This document shows, in pieces, positions 3,419 through 60,425 of a DNA stretch of 64,000 bases (the stretch's first letter is position 1; every line of letters begins with the position of its first letter). The stretch lies in assembly GCA_913062955.1 (NCBI GenBank), contig CAJXZP010000011.1, positions 1-64,000 on the forward strand, read 5' to 3'. The position numbers and the translations under genes were made by a program. This DNA is from an uncultured Flavobacteriales bacterium. Lineage in GTDB: Bacteria; Bacteroidota; Bacteroidia; Flavobacteriales_G; Salibacteraceae. Under the pieces are notes generated by a model. The model worked only from the letters and a program-made list of their open reading frames with translations. It had not been told where the DNA came from and made no database searches.

Positions 3419-3751
3419 TTACCAGGAATCTTCTTCGGCATCTAAAAACATTAACGCTTCTGAAATTTCCCCTATTGATTTTTCATCTTTCATTTTATAG
3501 GCAATTTTTTGTCCTTTTAAATAAGTGGAAATTGCTTTGTCGCGTTTTTTATTGTTTTCATACATTTTTCCCAGCTTGGAATACGCTTGTGAATAATTTG
3601 GGTCGAAAGAAATAAGTCGTTCAATAATTTGAATGGCTTTTTGACGATTACCGGCCATTTGATTTTCTACGGCTGCTGCAAAAGCCAAATAAGAATCTTT
3701 AGGACTCTTTACATGCATGGTGTTAATTAGTTCTAGTCTGCTTTGTTCCAT
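3419..3751 (-). CDS. Small TPR-repeat protein
   Basis: 110 residues, all helical, with about two tetratricopeptide repeats: residues ~20-52 (ENQMAGNRQKAIQIIERLI) and ~53-86 (PNYSQAYSKLGKMYENN, then KRDKAISTYLKG). There is no signal peptide, so it is probably a cytoplasmic adaptor. TPR pairs of this size bind peptides or partner proteins, and nothing visible identifies the partner. An imperfect inverted repeat (AATCAGAA / TTCTGATT, 3231-3257) downstream could end the transcript. The start ATG is the first in the frame. Confidence 0.7.
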   Translation of the reverse strand: MEQSRLELINTMHVKSPKDSYLAFAAAVENQMAGNRQKAIQIIERLISFDPNYSQAYSKLGKMYENNKKRDKAISTYLKGQKIAYKMKDEKSIGEISEALMFLDAEEDSW

Positions 3752-3872
3752 TGTTTAGGTTTGATTGATTTGTATCAAAATTACCTTATTTGAATTTCGA
3801 AAAGAGACCAAAACAGCCTTTTTAGGTTTTTCTTATTAACATCACTTTATTCATTTCTTTTGCTTGGTTAAA

Positions 3873-6800
3873 CTAGTTTTTACCTTGTTTTTCAAATAGT
3901 TGTACTACTTTTTTGAAAATATCAAAGTACAAGGTAACCATCATAATTAGGCTCATTAACCAGATAATTCCTATGTTATACCAAAAGGTTTCAATTTTGT
4001 TTCCAAACAAGTATTTAGTAGAGGCATAAAAATGAGATCGTATCCCTTTGGCATCCCGAAACACAGGATCAACCATGGGAACGAGTTTTTCATCTACCAC
4101 AATGACCTTATCAAACTTGTTGTTTAATCGCACCATATCACTGACGGATTGATTCACGTATTTCTCCTTTAAAGTATTGAAGGTGACGTTATCTTCTAGT
4201 TCTTTTTCTATGCTGTAAATCACTTGGTCCCGAGCTTTTGAGGCAATAATAAATTCCTTATTCAAATGCTTTTTGAATTGTACTAAATACAATTGCATTT
4301 TAGCGATCCGGGCTCGTGTTAAGGTGAGGTGCGATAATTTTGAGCTAAACTGGTAGGATGGGAAGTCAATATCGGCATGATTAGTACTCAACTCATTTTG
4401 AATAATCTGAGCTAAATGATCCACCTTTTCTTTTGAGTTTTCATCATAAAGATGAATGTCTAAATACTGAAGTTCGGCCTCGAGTTCAGTGACCCAATAG
4501 GATTTTAGAAAACCAATATGACTAATTTCGTGATCTACCGGGAAAAGCTTCTGTTCTAATGGGTTGTGCTTGAACTGGTTTACCATTAAGGCTTCATATG
4601 ACCATCGAGAAGCCATAATTTCGCCAATTATGGGAACCACAATCCGGGAACCAACCGTTGGATTCAGTTTGTCAAAGCTTACAATAACGCCACTAAATAT
4701 TAATTGAGGGATGATCATAAACGGAATAAGAATGTAAATGGCTACCGCAGACTTGAAACTATTTGAAATATTAAGTCCAACCATATTGGCAAAGAAACTA
4801 GTAGAGAACATAACCAGCCAGTATCGGATATTCATATCCTCGATTTCTAAGATATTATTACCAATCCAAATGAATAGAAAAGTTTGAATAGCTGAAATAA
4901 TTAGAAGAATGACAAACTTGGAAAATAGGTAACTTCCTTTACTCAGGTTCAAGAATTTTTCACGCTTCAGAAGTTTGCGATCTTTAAATATTTCCTCCGC
5001 ACTTACCGTCATCCCAATAAAAAGAGCCACCACTACGGACATGAAAATGTATGCCGGAATGTTCTCATTAAAAAAGAACGTATAGGGTTGTTGGCCATGT
5101 CGGGTCCAAGCAGAATAGCGAACAAAATAGGCAATGAAAAAAGCCAATGCGGGTGCCTCTATCAAGTTGATAAACAAGTATTGCTTATTACTTGTTTTGG
5201 ATAATAAATCTCGAGTCAGAAAAATTTTGAATTGATTTAGCTTGTTGGGGGTAGAGAGCTGATTAGTTGGTTTATTCTCTTTGGTTACTTGCGGGTTCCG
5301 AACGTTTTCTGGTTCGTTTTTCTTGTGTTTTTTGAACCACTCTTGAGGGGCAGTTTTCCTACGGTCTGTTCGTTTACCATATTCATTGACAACCTTTTGG
5401 TCTATGATGTCAAAAATTAATTCGGAGTTGACATTTCCGCAAGTAGCACATTCATTTTCATCTGCATCTAGATGATGTGCGTGGGCTTTGAAATAGGATA
5501 TGCTCTCAATGGGCTCCCCATAATAAATCGTATACCCCCCATTATCCAACAACAATAAACGATCAAAAAGTTTGAAAATGTAGGAGGACGGCTGATGAAT
5601 AACAATGAAAATGAGTTTCCCTTTTAAAGCCAACTCTTTCATCAAATCCATGATTTTTTCGGAATCTCTAGAAGATAAACCGGATGTGGGTTCATCTACA
5701 TACAAAACGGAAGGTTCTCTAATTAGCTCCAAGGCAATGTTTAGTCTTTTTCGTTGCCCCCCTGAAATAACCTTCTCTATAGGGTTACCTACCTTTAAAT
5801 CTTTTGCTCGGTATAGGCCTAAAGAGTGTAAAATGGTATGAACTTTTTGCTTTAATTGTTCATCCGATAGATTCGCAAAACTAAGTTTCGCACTAAAAAA
5901 TAAATTTTGGTATACCGTTAATTCTTCAATTAATAAATCATCTTGTGATACAAATCCAATAACTCCTTGGAGCTGGTCTTTGTCTTTATGGATATCGTAT
6001 CCGTTTAAAGTAATATTTCCTGTGGTTGGAATATAGTTTCCATTCAAAACGTTGAGCATGGTGGATTTTCCCGATCCACTACCTCCCATAATCCCGACTA
6101 ATCTACCCGTTCGTTCTTTAAAACTGAATTCATGTAATCCGGTATCACCAGATGGAAAATTATAGGATACATTGTGTGCTTGGATGACTAGTTTTTCAGG
6201 CGCAGCATCATTTACAAAAACAGCTAAGATATCACTGAAATAAACGGGACTCATTTTATTTCCTCGCAGGGCAGAGCCGCTGTTAAATATATAGGTGCGT
6301 TCTGGAGTAACTGCGGTGCTATTTAAAAATAAGCTATCATTACCAACGTATCGGAATACGTACATATTGATATCTTTTATTTGAAGAACAGCTAAGGTGC
6401 CATCAAAATTGGCACCTGAAATATATTTGGCTTTCTTAAAATCTCGGTTTTTTTCTTTAGATACAATCATTAATTGATCTAAATCGGGGCAATAGGTTTT
6501 CGTAATTTGAGCAAATTTTACCGCGTTTATGAAATTCTCTTCCTTAATGCTAAATGTTTTACTTAGAATAAGTACAAATTCAGATTCATGGGCTGAAATG
6601 TTTCCATCGGCATAAATGTATTCTAACAATCTAAATAGAACGATGAACTTTTGAACTCGTGTCAGATTACTGTTAATGCTCTCGCAAATACCTCTAACAT
6701 TCTCTGGGTTCAGTGCTTCTTCGTAACTAGATTTCCCCGAATGAAACTCCTCCAAGTATTCGTCATACATGTTTAGGAAAATATCCACCCTTTTTTTACG

Positions 6801-56274: not shown

Positions 56275-57093
56275 TTAGTTACGTCTAGAATATACCTGTA
56301 AGCCTTTCTTAGTACTTGTAATGTCATAAATGATATACAGTTGACCCGTGCTTTGGCTGCACGAGATATACATTTCGCCATTCTTTTCCTTCATTTCAGT
56401 CCAGCCCTCATATTGGAAAATTTTCACGTTTTCTGAGGTGTGAAGTAACCGATCACAACTGTATTGGTTGAATACCATGGGAGGAATGAAAGAACCGTAT
56501 AGGATGTTAGGCGAGTTTTTACACATTAGCTGACCTTCATCTATATGCATGCTTAAGTCTTTACCAAAGTGAATGGAATTATCCTTTTCGCAGTTATTAG
56601 AGGTGACCCAATTTGATTTCCATTCAGCCGAGCCTACTGCTGACTTGGAATATTCTTCTAGGGTATTCGAAAGTTCCCAAGAAGTGTTTGCCAATAATCC
56701 CATGTTACTGGGTTCTACGTTTTGGATCGTTCTATTTCCTAGAGGTAAATGAATCATCGGATAAATTCCCTTTTCAACATCTCTAATGTTCCAATTGCTT
56801 GTATCGTATTTTTCGACAAAAATGTAATAATCCCCTTCTTCGAAAATTTTTGCGCTCTTAAATTCACCTATCAAATCAGACTTCATGGTTGCCACTACAT
56901 GTAGGCCAGTCAGCCAATCGTCCGGGTTATTGAAAACCTCCACTTTCGCGTTTACCACTGGAGAACCGGTAGGGTCGAGCACAATGCCCTCTATCTTATA
57001 GAACTCTTTTTTGGAACATGAAGTTATGATTACTGGAATGGATAGGAATAGCGCACCTAATATAATGGTGATTGTTGAAGGTAGTGACTTCAT
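56275..57093 (-). CDS. Lipoprotein with carboxypeptidase-regulatory-like domain, twin 1
   Basis: 272 residues. Lipobox T-S-C (Cys26), then a CarboxypepD_reg-like beta domain (~33-110: IEGIVLDPTGSPVVNAKVEVF; SDLIGEFKSAKIFEEGDYYI), then a second beta domain (~130-270) with paired Cys (NNCEKDN, QLMCKNS, YSCDRLL, ISCSQST) and a lipocalin-like strand pattern (WELSNTLEEYSK ... MYISCSQSTGQLYIIYDI). No function known to me. Its neighbour at 57227 is a close paralogue of the same length, so this is a tandem duplication. Transcribed away from the sigma factor gene. Confidence 0.8.
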   Translation of the reverse strand: MKSLPSTITIILGALFLSIPVIITSCSKKEFYKIEGIVLDPTGSPVVNAKVEVFNNPDDWLTGLHVVATMKSDLIGEFKSAKIFEEGDYYIFVEKYDTSNWNIRDVEKGIYPMIHLPLGNRTIQNVEPSNMGLLANTSWELSNTLEEYSKSAVGSAEWKSNWVTSNNCEKDNSIHFGKDLSMHIDEGQLMCKNSPNILYGSFIPPMVFNQYSCDRLLHTSENVKIFQYEGWTEMKEKNGEMYISCSQSTGQLYIIYDITSTKKGLQVYSRRN

Positions 57094-57226: not shown

Positions 57227-58045
57227 TTATCTCGATCGAGTATACACTTCCAATACCTTAAGACCATTATCTCCAGTATATAGAATGTAGGTTTGTCCGA
57301 CTGAGGAATTACAACTTAGATACATTTTGGCCCCTTTGGCCTCCATTTCTGGCCAATTGGAATATTCAAATTGCTTCACGGGAATTTTGGTAAATGGTAA
57401 AGTCTCACATCCTAATATGTTAAAGATCATTGGAGGAACAAAAGTTCCAATTATTTCTGTCGCATTCCCTCTACATACGGTGGCTCCTTCAGAAAAACGC
57501 ATGGATAAATCTTTATTGAAAAATAACTGGTTATCACGTTTACAATTATTTATTCCTGACCAAATGGACTGCCACTCTACCGCAGTAGCTCCAGGCTTGG
57601 TGAATTCTCGGTGTACATTCGTTAATTTCCAAGCAGTTTCAGCCATAGCTGACATATTATTAAACTCAATGGTATGGGTAAGGTCCGTTTCTTCAGGTAC
57701 CGTAATTTGGGGATATATTCCTTGTTCTACTTTTCTGATTTCCCAGTTGCTAGAGTCATATTTTTCAATGAAAATATAGTATTCTCCAGCTTCGTAAATC
57801 GCCTCAGATTCGAATCTTCCCGAAAGGTCAGTTACCATGGTGGTAAGAACATTAAGTCCCGTGAGCCAATCTTCTGCATTTCTGAAAATCTCCACTTTGG
57901 CTCCAGAAATTTGAGTGTTGTCCACACTGACTACGTTTCCAGTAAATGCTACAGATTCTTCCTTCTTATTACAAGAAGAAAATGAGACAATCAATAGCGT
58001 TGGTATTGAAAGAAAAATTAGCTGTAAGAATACCTTTAATTTCAT
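57227..58045 (-). CDS. Lipoprotein with carboxypeptidase-regulatory-like domain, twin 2
   Basis: 272 residues, the same as twin 1, with the same order of features: lipobox F-S-S-C, FTGNVVSVDNTQISGAKVEIFR, DLSGRFESEAIYEAGEYYIF, SNWEIRKVEQGIYPQI, then a domain with AETAWKLTNVHREFTK and the matching Cys (NNCKRDN, ATVCRGN, LGCETLP, YLSCNSS). The mature parts are clearly homologous by eye while the DNA is diverged. It is 133 nt upstream of twin 1, same strand, and divergent from the ECF sigma operon with a 285-nt gap. Confidence 0.8.
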   Translation of the reverse strand: MKLKVFLQLIFLSIPTLLIVSFSSCNKKEESVAFTGNVVSVDNTQISGAKVEIFRNAEDWLTGLNVLTTMVTDLSGRFESEAIYEAGEYYIFIEKYDSSNWEIRKVEQGIYPQITVPEETDLTHTIEFNNMSAMAETAWKLTNVHREFTKPGATAVEWQSIWSGINNCKRDNQLFFNKDLSMRFSEGATVCRGNATEIIGTFVPPMIFNILGCETLPFTKIPVKQFEYSNWPEMEAKGAKMYLSCNSSVGQTYILYTGDNGLKVLEVYTRSR

Positions 58046-58271: not shown

Positions 58272-58294
58272 GAGGGTTAGGCAACCTTCTTTTT
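58272..58294 (+). promoter_or_regulatory. Terminator-like hairpin in the sigma factor leader
   Basis: GAGGGTT, a four-base AGGC loop and AACCTTC pair over 7 bp (one G-U), followed by five T, all inside the 5' leader. It has the form of a weak intrinsic terminator and could attenuate the operon. Confidence 0.45.
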
Positions 58295-58330
58295 AAAAAA
58301 TGCATCTATAAGTAGAACCTGAGAAGTGGA

Positions 58331-58870
58331 ATGACAGAGGAAGAATTAATTAAAGCATGTAAACAAAATAATGCACGTGCTCAAAAGCTATTTTTCGAGA
58401 GGTACTCGCCAAGATTAATGGGAGTTTGTATCAGATACTCTAATAGCCAGGATGAGGCCAATGACATGCTTCAAGATGGGTTCATAAAGATCTTTCAAAA
58501 GTTAGGCTCATTTAATGGGACAGGATCCTTCGAAGGTTGGATGCATAGAACTATGTCGAACACCTGTTTAGATAATATTCGAAAAAATAAGAAGTTTAAA
58601 TTTGGTGTGGAAATTGAAAATGCGGAAAGTGAAGTTCATGTTCCTGAAAATGCGCTTTCCGAAATAAGAACCAAAGAGCTTTTGGAACTAATCGCAAGAT
58701 TACCAGAAGGGTATAGAATAGTTTTTAACATGTTTGCCATTGAGGGTTATGGACACAAGGAAATTGCAGATGAACTTGGGATTACAGAAAACACTTCTAA
58801 ATCTCAATATAGAAAAGCAAGACTTTGGCTACAGAAAGAATTAGTGGAATTGGATAAAATATTACAATAG
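58331..58870 (+). CDS. ECF-type RNA polymerase sigma factor
   Basis: 179 residues. Sigma region 2 (~20-90: FFERYSPRLMGVCIRYSN, DEANDMLQDGFIKIFQKL, FEGWMHRTMSNTCLDNIRK) and region 4 (~115-172: ARLPEGYRIVFNMFAIEGY, GHKEIADELGITENTSKSQ) with no region 3 and no extra domain. It directs RNA polymerase to a regulon in response to an envelope signal. Its TAG overlaps the GTG of the next gene by one base, the usual coupling of an ECF sigma factor to its anti-sigma factor. Confidence 0.93.
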   Translation: MTEEELIKACKQNNARAQKLFFERYSPRLMGVCIRYSNSQDEANDMLQDGFIKIFQKLGSFNGTGSFEGWMHRTMSNTCLDNIRKNKKFKFGVEIENAESEVHVPENALSEIRTKELLELIARLPEGYRIVFNMFAIEGYGHKEIADELGITENTSKSQYRKARLWLQKELVELDKILQ

Positions 58871-59997
58871 TGGAAGAAAGCGATAACATAAAAAAACTCT
58901 TTAAGGAGAGGTTTGAGTCTTTTGAGGCTCCCGTTGATCCAAAATTATGGAGCGGTATCGAATCAGCTATCAGTGGCTCTGCCCCTATAGCTGGTGCGTC
59001 AATACTATCTACTAAGGCTATTATTTCCTTGGTGGTGGCTGCTACGGTTGTGGCAACTATTGCTACCATTTCTTTAACGGATGGGGTAAAGGATAGGAAT
59101 ATTAACACCCCAATTGCTATTGAAAATGAAATTATTGAACGGAATACGATTTCGGATGAAAATATTGAAAATGTATTATCTGTTGAAGGGGATGACTCCA
59201 ATAACCGAATTACTCCAGTTGAACCAGAAGTTTCCAATGGATCGGTTACCATGGAAAAGAAAGATTCAAATAATGATCTCATTAGGAATACTTCTAAAAA
59301 TAATGAATTAGCGGAAGTGGAATCTGGAAAGGAAGAATCTCTGGTGGAAGAAGTTAATTCTCAGGAAATACGAAGTGAAGTAAGTATTTCAGATGTTAAT
59401 AAGGATACCGAAATTATTAGTAATGCTCCAAAAACAATTATTGTTAAGGATCAATCACGAGTTGAGGCTTATCCATCTGGGGGTGTTGCTCCTTTATTCG
59501 TAACCTTTAGTTCAATAGCTGAGATTCAGGATATCAAATGGAAATTTGATGATGGCACGGAAAGTACAGCGTTAAATCCTACACATGAATTTACAGAACC
59601 TGGAATTTATTTTGTCACCATGTTGGCCAAATTAAAAGATGGTTCGGTGGTTATGGATAAGGCCGTAATTCAGGTGAAAGAGGATCTTAGAGAAAAAGAG
59701 AATTCTTATGCGGTTTCTGAAATAAAGGTGCATAATATTATTACTCCGAATGGAGATGGTAGTAACGATGAGTTAATTGTGGAGATGAAAGGAATTCACT
59801 CTTATTCGATCTCTATATACTCCAAAGGAGGACAATTAGTTTACCAAAGTGAAAACCCAATGCAAAACTGGGATGGGACTAATTTGAATGGAAGTAGAGT
59901 TTTGGATGGCACTTACTTTTACTTAATTAATGCGTTAGGTGAAGATCAAAAAGTATATAGTCCTAAAGGATATATTACAGTAAGAGGTTCCAGATAA
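58870..59997 (+). CDS. Putative anti-sigma factor with PKD domain and T9SS type B sorting domain
   Basis: 375 residues from GTG. Residues 1-45 are cytoplasmic and helical (IKKLFKERFESFEAPVDPK, then LWSGIESAI) in the way of Bacteroidota anti-sigma factors. One membrane helix follows at 49-68. An acidic, Asn/Ser-rich linker (~72-195) leads to a PKD domain (~197-270: VEAYPSGGVAPLFVTFSS, KWKFDDGTES, HEFTEPGIYFV). A gliding-motility type B sorting domain closes the protein (~286-375: NIITPNGDGSNDELIVEMK, WDGTNLNGS, GTYFYLI, KGYITVR). A T9SS signal on a membrane-anchored protein is unexpected. It is coupled to the ECF sigma gene. Anti-sigma activity is inferred from position and N-terminus. Confidence 0.8.
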   Translation: MEESDNIKKLFKERFESFEAPVDPKLWSGIESAISGSAPIAGASILSTKAIISLVVAATVVATIATISLTDGVKDRNINTPIAIENEIIERNTISDENIENVLSVEGDDSNNRITPVEPEVSNGSVTMEKKDSNNDLIRNTSKNNELAEVESGKEESLVEEVNSQEIRSEVSISDVNKDTEIISNAPKTIIVKDQSRVEAYPSGGVAPLFVTFSSIAEIQDIKWKFDDGTESTALNPTHEFTEPGIYFVTMLAKLKDGSVVMDKAVIQVKEDLREKENSYAVSEIKVHNIITPNGDGSNDELIVEMKGIHSYSISIYSKGGQLVYQSENPMQNWDGTNLNGSRVLDGTYFYLINALGEDQKVYSPKGYITVRGSR

Positions 59998-60425
59998 GTC
60001 TAAATATAGCTCGGTGAGAAATACGGTTATTAGGGGTATGGCTGTCTAATCTGAAAAAAAAACAACCCTTTAGGATAACAAAATTATAAACCTATATCAT
60101 TAATTTGATATAGGTTTTTTTTTGGCGCAACCCGAGGGTTTTAGGATGGATTAAATGGTTCGTTTACTACATGATGAGGTTAGGATGTGTTTGGAATAGG
60201 GAAGGGGATTCTCCTCTTTGTTTAGGGATCAGAGAACCGGAAAGGAAAAATAAATCTGGCCTCAAAAAAAGGGGAGGTAAATTTTACCAAAGGGTTTCTT
60301 ATAAATTTGAAATAGTCCTTTGTTGGTAACAAAGGCTACCTGAAATATAATTAAACTACTGTAACAGGATCGTATTTAAATATCGTTTAGTTGGGTGTTT
60401 CGTTATGGAGGTTGCAAATGGAACC
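59998..60425. other. Gene-free region between convergent genes
   Basis: Holds the terminator at 60089-60123. Apart from an A7-GGGGAGG stretch near 60265-60280 I see nothing I can name. Confidence 0.5.
60089..60123 (+). terminator. Terminator of the sigma factor operon
   Basis: AAACCTATATCA / TGATATAGGTTT perfect 12-bp stem, TTAATT loop, nine T. Confidence 0.92.

Follow-up and report, generated by a model that had tools for sequence, protein, structure and literature searches.

A putative Dma-like anti-sigma factor in an uncultured Flavobacteriales bacterium ends in a type B sorting domain without the Arg-Trp pair of exported domains

In the 64,000-nucleotide stretch of DNA analyzed here (the window), an ECF sigma factor gene is followed by the gene of a membrane protein that very probably is its anti-sigma factor and that ends in a domain related to the type B sorting domains (CTDs) of T9SS cargo, but without the Arg-Trp pair of their [ND]RWG strand. 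The explanation to which we give slightly better than an even chance is that this protein is a Dma-like anti-sigma factor in which a repurposed, probably non-exported T9SS domain senses the state of the outer membrane or of the T9SS, and that the sigma/anti-sigma unit regulates itself. The features of the locus are collected in Table 1.

Table 1. Features of the sigma factor/partner locus in window coordinates
Feature	Position	Strand	Basis
ECF sigma factor gene, 179 aa	58331..58870	+	PF04542, PF08281, TIGR02937
Membrane partner, putative anti-sigma factor, 375 aa, GTG start	58870..59997 (including stop)	+	
Cytoplasmic head, two helices, residues 1-48	58870..59013	+	AlphaFold2 model; alignment; hhalign
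Single membrane helix, residues about 51-69	59020..59076	+	hydropathy; AlphaFold2 model (helix 45-68)
Disordered linker, about residues 70-196	59077..59457	+	pLDDT <50 as far as residue 192
PKD domain, about residues 197-272	59458..59685	+	PF18911, PF00801; modelled strands 198-270
Type B CTD-like domain (CHU_C), residues 285-371	59722..59982	+	PF13585 E 7.7e-20
SKGG, residues 318-321, in place of [ND]RWG of exported type B domains	59821..59832	+	
Putative autoregulatory ECF promoter	58280..58306	+	GGCAACCTT-N14-CATC; ends ~25 bases 5' of sigma ATG
Intrinsic terminator hairpin, then U run	60088..60117	+	folded stretch -18.3 kcal/mol, z -4.2

The sigma ORF matches Sigma70_r2 (E 1.4e-17) and Sigma70_r4_2 (E 8.8e-16), and its stop shares one base with the GTG start of the partner (TAGTG, at 58870), as had been noticed from the sequence alone. 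Given the promoter motif 5' of the sigma gene and the terminator 3' of the partner gene, the two genes form an isolated unit. Two similar lipoprotein-like neighbors with a CarboxypepD_reg-like domain (56275-57093 and 57227-58045, both on the minus strand) lie divergently from the sigma operon.

The AlphaFold2 model and Pfam agree with the head, single membrane helix and PKD domain that the sequence-only reading had assigned to the partner. The head helices are placed at residues 3-16 and 24-35, and V22 and W27 of the head are invariant in a nine-member alignment. Hydropathy and the model reveal no N-terminal Sec signal peptide, the first hydrophobic stretch coming after the 48-residue head. 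Model confidence is low over residues 39-192 and high in the PKD domain and CTD (pLDDT 91-97), and the identity to the nearest relative is 26% in the linker compared with 69% in the head. Across 36 members, the distance from the membrane helix to the CTD is 124-232 residues, with a median of 175, a length with which the linker could cross the periplasm. The PKD_4 match is significant (E 1.6e-9), the CHU_C model is covered in full (1-86/86), and TIGR04131 also exceeds its cut-off. A Foldseek search with the full partner returned matches limited to generic Ig-like and PKD domains.

The type B domain had been described as complete, which is correct with respect to the profile match but not to the signature, where S318-K319-G320-G321 stands in place of the strand with the Arg-Trp. 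In an alignment of partner CTDs with cargo CTDs from 13 genomes (20 from the window genome, and 30 top-scoring and 20 mid-scoring ones from 12 other genomes), the Trp of this strand is present in 0 of 43 partners compared with 58 of 69 cargo domains, so that ∼16% of the cargo domains likewise lack it. This position is the most different column between the two sets; the Arg that precedes it is frequent in cargo (63) and mixed in partners. The TPNxD, WxG and GxY signatures are retained in 35 of 37 members. TPNxD is degenerate in three members (L014, L048 and L049). The window CTD ranks fourth by score among the 32 CHU_C matches in its genome (Pfam). Secretion depends on each of five conserved type B motifs (PMC12618676); the [ND]RWG strand may be one of these, which would tie the Arg-Trp pair to export. 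Type B domains reportedly escape cleavage and stay bound to PorP-like barrels (PMC9143113). The same genome contains a second sigma/CTD-ended pair (contig C8, about 82300-83980; L137, L150), with a sigma factor of another group (SVGTSKSNL type) and also without the RWG strand.

The pair is not unique. Of 41 relatives, 22 have a gene of this kind by a head-only search, and among 80 Bacteroidota sigma loci gathered by sigma alignment, blind to the partner, 79 have an adjacent downstream ORF of the same plan, a coupling beyond chance, the exception being at a contig end. By inspection, the C-termini of the 79 partners are type B-like in 28, beta-barrel or undefined in 33 (mostly barrels, some of them not called by Pfam) and short in 18. 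Pfam calls CHU_C in all 29 CTD-ended partners (the 28 and that of the window); of the 51 remaining ones, 25 have an OMP_b-brl_2 match. PKD is called in only 9 of the 29 and is, therefore, optional. CTD-ended and other partners align over the head and membrane helix only (hhalign 96.6%, E 6.6e-10), and by this sequence comparison their heads are homologous. In the sigma tree, the C-terminus types are strongly clustered, with 9 changes compared with 43.9 upon shuffling, a pattern still compatible with a single origin, and the CTDs are too short for their own tree to separate one origin from several.

Several further observations pertain to this family. In the window genome, 2 of the 21 sigma loci have a CHU_C-ended partner, and two more (L153 on contig C41 and L166 on contig C32) are sigma/head-membrane-helix pairs with partners that, by eye, probably end in barrels, both of which run past the locus sequence. 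The partners in L042, L050, L054 and L109 apparently have two tandem anti-sigma heads before the membrane helix. In 12 of the 28 CTD-type loci, the sigma gene has a divergent neighbor that encodes a secreted protein (L036, L037, L039, L041, L044, L048 and others, at about 3670-4900 on the minus strand), an arrangement that is probably general synteny.

The assignment of the partner as an anti-sigma factor, already implicit in the sequence-only reading, draws on this conserved coupling, on the homology of the head to those of barrel-ended partners and on a confident model of the sigma factor with the head. In the homologue L091, both genes are in one frame, so that sigma factor and head could be modelled as one chain (pTM 0.81, with the head helices at pLDDT 85-93). 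The nearest PDB chains are ECF sigma factors solved with their anti-sigma factors, namely SigW-RsiW (TMt 0.60-0.66), sigmaE-RseA, AlgU-MucA and CnrH-CnrY, and SigG1 and SigJ match as well; because free ECF sigma factors are often compact in AlphaFold2 monomer models and also match, the docking of the head on the sigma factor is only suggestive. Against the NCBIfam anti-sigma model NF052375, a few family members give weak scores, far under the cut-off.

The overall design is already known, Dma/Das being its barrel-ended version. Dma proteins consist of an anti-sigma head, a membrane helix, a disordered tether and a beta-barrel, and the sigma factor, once freed, induces the operon that encodes it (PMC13088901); M0N98_03760-61 of Phocaeicola vulgatus, a pair of similar design, responds to envelope stress (PMC9308784), and strong self-induction is characteristic of the published barrel-ended pairs (PMC13088901, PMC9308784). 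With Dma/Das of Bacteroides thetaiotaomicron and M0N98_03760-61, all from Bacteroidota, the window pair shares the adjacent sigma factor, the N-terminal head, the single membrane helix, the long disordered tether and, probably, self-induction by the free sigma factor, but the C-terminal outer-membrane beta-barrel of Dma is replaced by the PKD and type B CTD-like domains. Lacking a barrel, the window partner is considered Dma-like and is not filed as Dma. The Das sigma factors belong to group ECF21; the likeness drawn here is one of layout. The window head is homologous to the heads of barrel-ended and short Bacteroidota partners, whereas its likeness to the Dma1/2 heads is by description.

The partner resembles T9SS type B substrates (SprB, Fjoh_3952, PG1035) in having CHU_C/TIGR04131 at the extreme C-terminus next to a PKD domain, but differs from these in its inner-membrane anchor and cytoplasmic head and in the lack of a signal peptide, the Arg-Trp pair and an adjacent PorP/SprF gene. 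There is prior art for a CTD-bearing protein that feeds an ECF sigma factor: PorA of Porphyromonas gingivalis, a CTD protein, acts upstream of PorXY-SigP (PMC7712824). PorA, however, is a surface protein that works indirectly, via a two-component system, whereas the window CTD sits on the putative anti-sigma factor itself. In the open-licence literature searched, no description of CTD-ended anti-sigma factors was found. The short two-helix head is shared with CnrY-type class II anti-sigma factors, a likeness of predicted shape only. The putative sensor of the window partner has a parallel in the RsgI anti-sigma factors of Clostridium thermocellum, whose extracellular sensor domains derive from secreted proteins; these anti-sigma factors differ in their Gram-positive host, sigma-I and carbohydrate modules.

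The sigma factor likely induces its own operon, to judge from the promoter sequences. The motif is found with exact spacing 5' of the sigma gene in 13 of 13 family loci examined, and related TGCAAC...CATC/GTC versions precede many loci across the phylum. Strict and relaxed patterns yield 13 versus 10 and 4 versus 3 matches (genome versus control) in the window genome, where the sigma operon is the only match in promoter position, the others being mostly inside genes, and where none of the T9SS genes has the motif. Among the ∼70 motif loci read across 35 family genomes, the identified genes at promoter distance are sigma operons, except for L208 and L234, which adjoin unrelated ORFs; most other matches fall inside genes, and several of these ‘inside' matches are in stop-to-stop frames of the sigma gene itself. 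Such a search may overlook targets that have weaker sites. Matches beyond the sigma operon are at chance level; self-induction is likely, and direct control of T9SS genes by this sigma factor is unsupported.

The window genome does encode a T9SS, with SprA (E 3.9e-148) and 150 scored type A sorting-domain matches. SprA is present in 28 of 28 genomes of CTD-type members compared with 15 of 22 others, a contrast confounded by phylogeny, and Cytophagales and Sphingobacteriales members have SprA without the CTD, so that a T9SS does not require a partner of this type. None of the 28 CTD loci has a PorP/SprF gene within 5 kb. This is a weak criterion, given that orphan type B substrates exist and can use a distant carrier (PMC12618676). 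The window genome has six PorP/SprF genes, none on the contig of the window; with more than 20 type B domains in the same genome, most of these domains are orphans.

Under the favored explanation, the 48-residue head would keep the sigma factor bound at the inner membrane, which the single helix would span, and the disordered tether, which exceeds 100 residues, would be long enough for the PKD and repurposed type B domains to act as the sensor at the outer membrane, in place of the beta-barrel of Dma. The docking site of the type B domain would be a component of the outer membrane or of the T9SS, such as a PorP/SprF-like carrier, and the domain would be neither exported nor cleaved; retention of the fold and of TPNxD, WxG and GxY along with the loss of Arg-Trp suggests such docking without export or cleavage. 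Altered docking or a perturbed envelope would then free the sigma factor, with its own operon induced first. The pairing, the architecture, the head homology, the loss of Arg-Trp and the promoter motif are backed by sequence and models; sigma inhibition, the docking site, non-export and the signal are what we infer. It is possible, although doubtful, that the partner is, more specifically, an inner-membrane-anchored pseudo-substrate, with the type B domain sitting untransported on the T9SS or a PorP/SprF-like carrier by virtue of its missing export residues, and the occupancy or state of this site setting sigma activity. If true, the partner would gauge the secretion machine, or the carriers of that machine, directly.

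Other readings of the CTD fit the same observations less well. That the PKD and CTD-like domains form a periplasmic Ig-like sensor of a ligand or envelope stress, with no T9SS link left, would account for the lost Arg-Trp, the degenerate TPNxD of three members and the barrel or absence of a domain in the same slot in other lineages, but is unlikely given the TPNxD and WxG signatures kept in nearly all members, the confinement of CTD-type members to SprA-positive genomes among those tested and a linker of at least 124 residues in every case. Quite improbable, too, is a true T9SS signal, with SprA exporting the C-terminus, a PorP/SprF-like carrier retaining it at the surface and the N-terminus remaining in the inner membrane, a trans-envelope tether like the barrel of Dma. 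The above-threshold profile matches, the retained signatures, the persistence of uncleaved type B domains on PorP-like barrels and the availability of distant carriers speak for such export; the absence of Arg-Trp from all partners, of neighboring PorP/SprF genes and of a signal peptide speaks against it, and a substrate anchored in the inner membrane might jam the translocon. The sequence-only reading had taken the CTD for a feedback probe that the T9SS engages or cleaves; in this model, the sigma factor would then adjust T9SS expression. A sensor role is reasonable, the CTD being kept in a large conserved class, but the role of an ordinary sorting signal is unsupported. The pairing of a CTD with a sigma factor, the PorA precedent, and an ECF-type motif at T9SS genes together with one ECF/anti-sigma pair in F. 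psychrophilum (PMC9723704) are in line with cleavage and feedback; nevertheless, this model is very improbable, as type B domains are reportedly uncleaved and the sigma motif occurs at no T9SS gene.

In many Bacteroidota, then, the slot of the Dma beta-barrel is filled by a T9SS-derived domain that differs from exported domains at a specific residue pair. This provides a handle on two questions, namely, to which signals dual-membrane anti-sigma factors respond and which type B residues confer exportability, and may help name sigma factor partners that a CTD profile would call secreted cargo.
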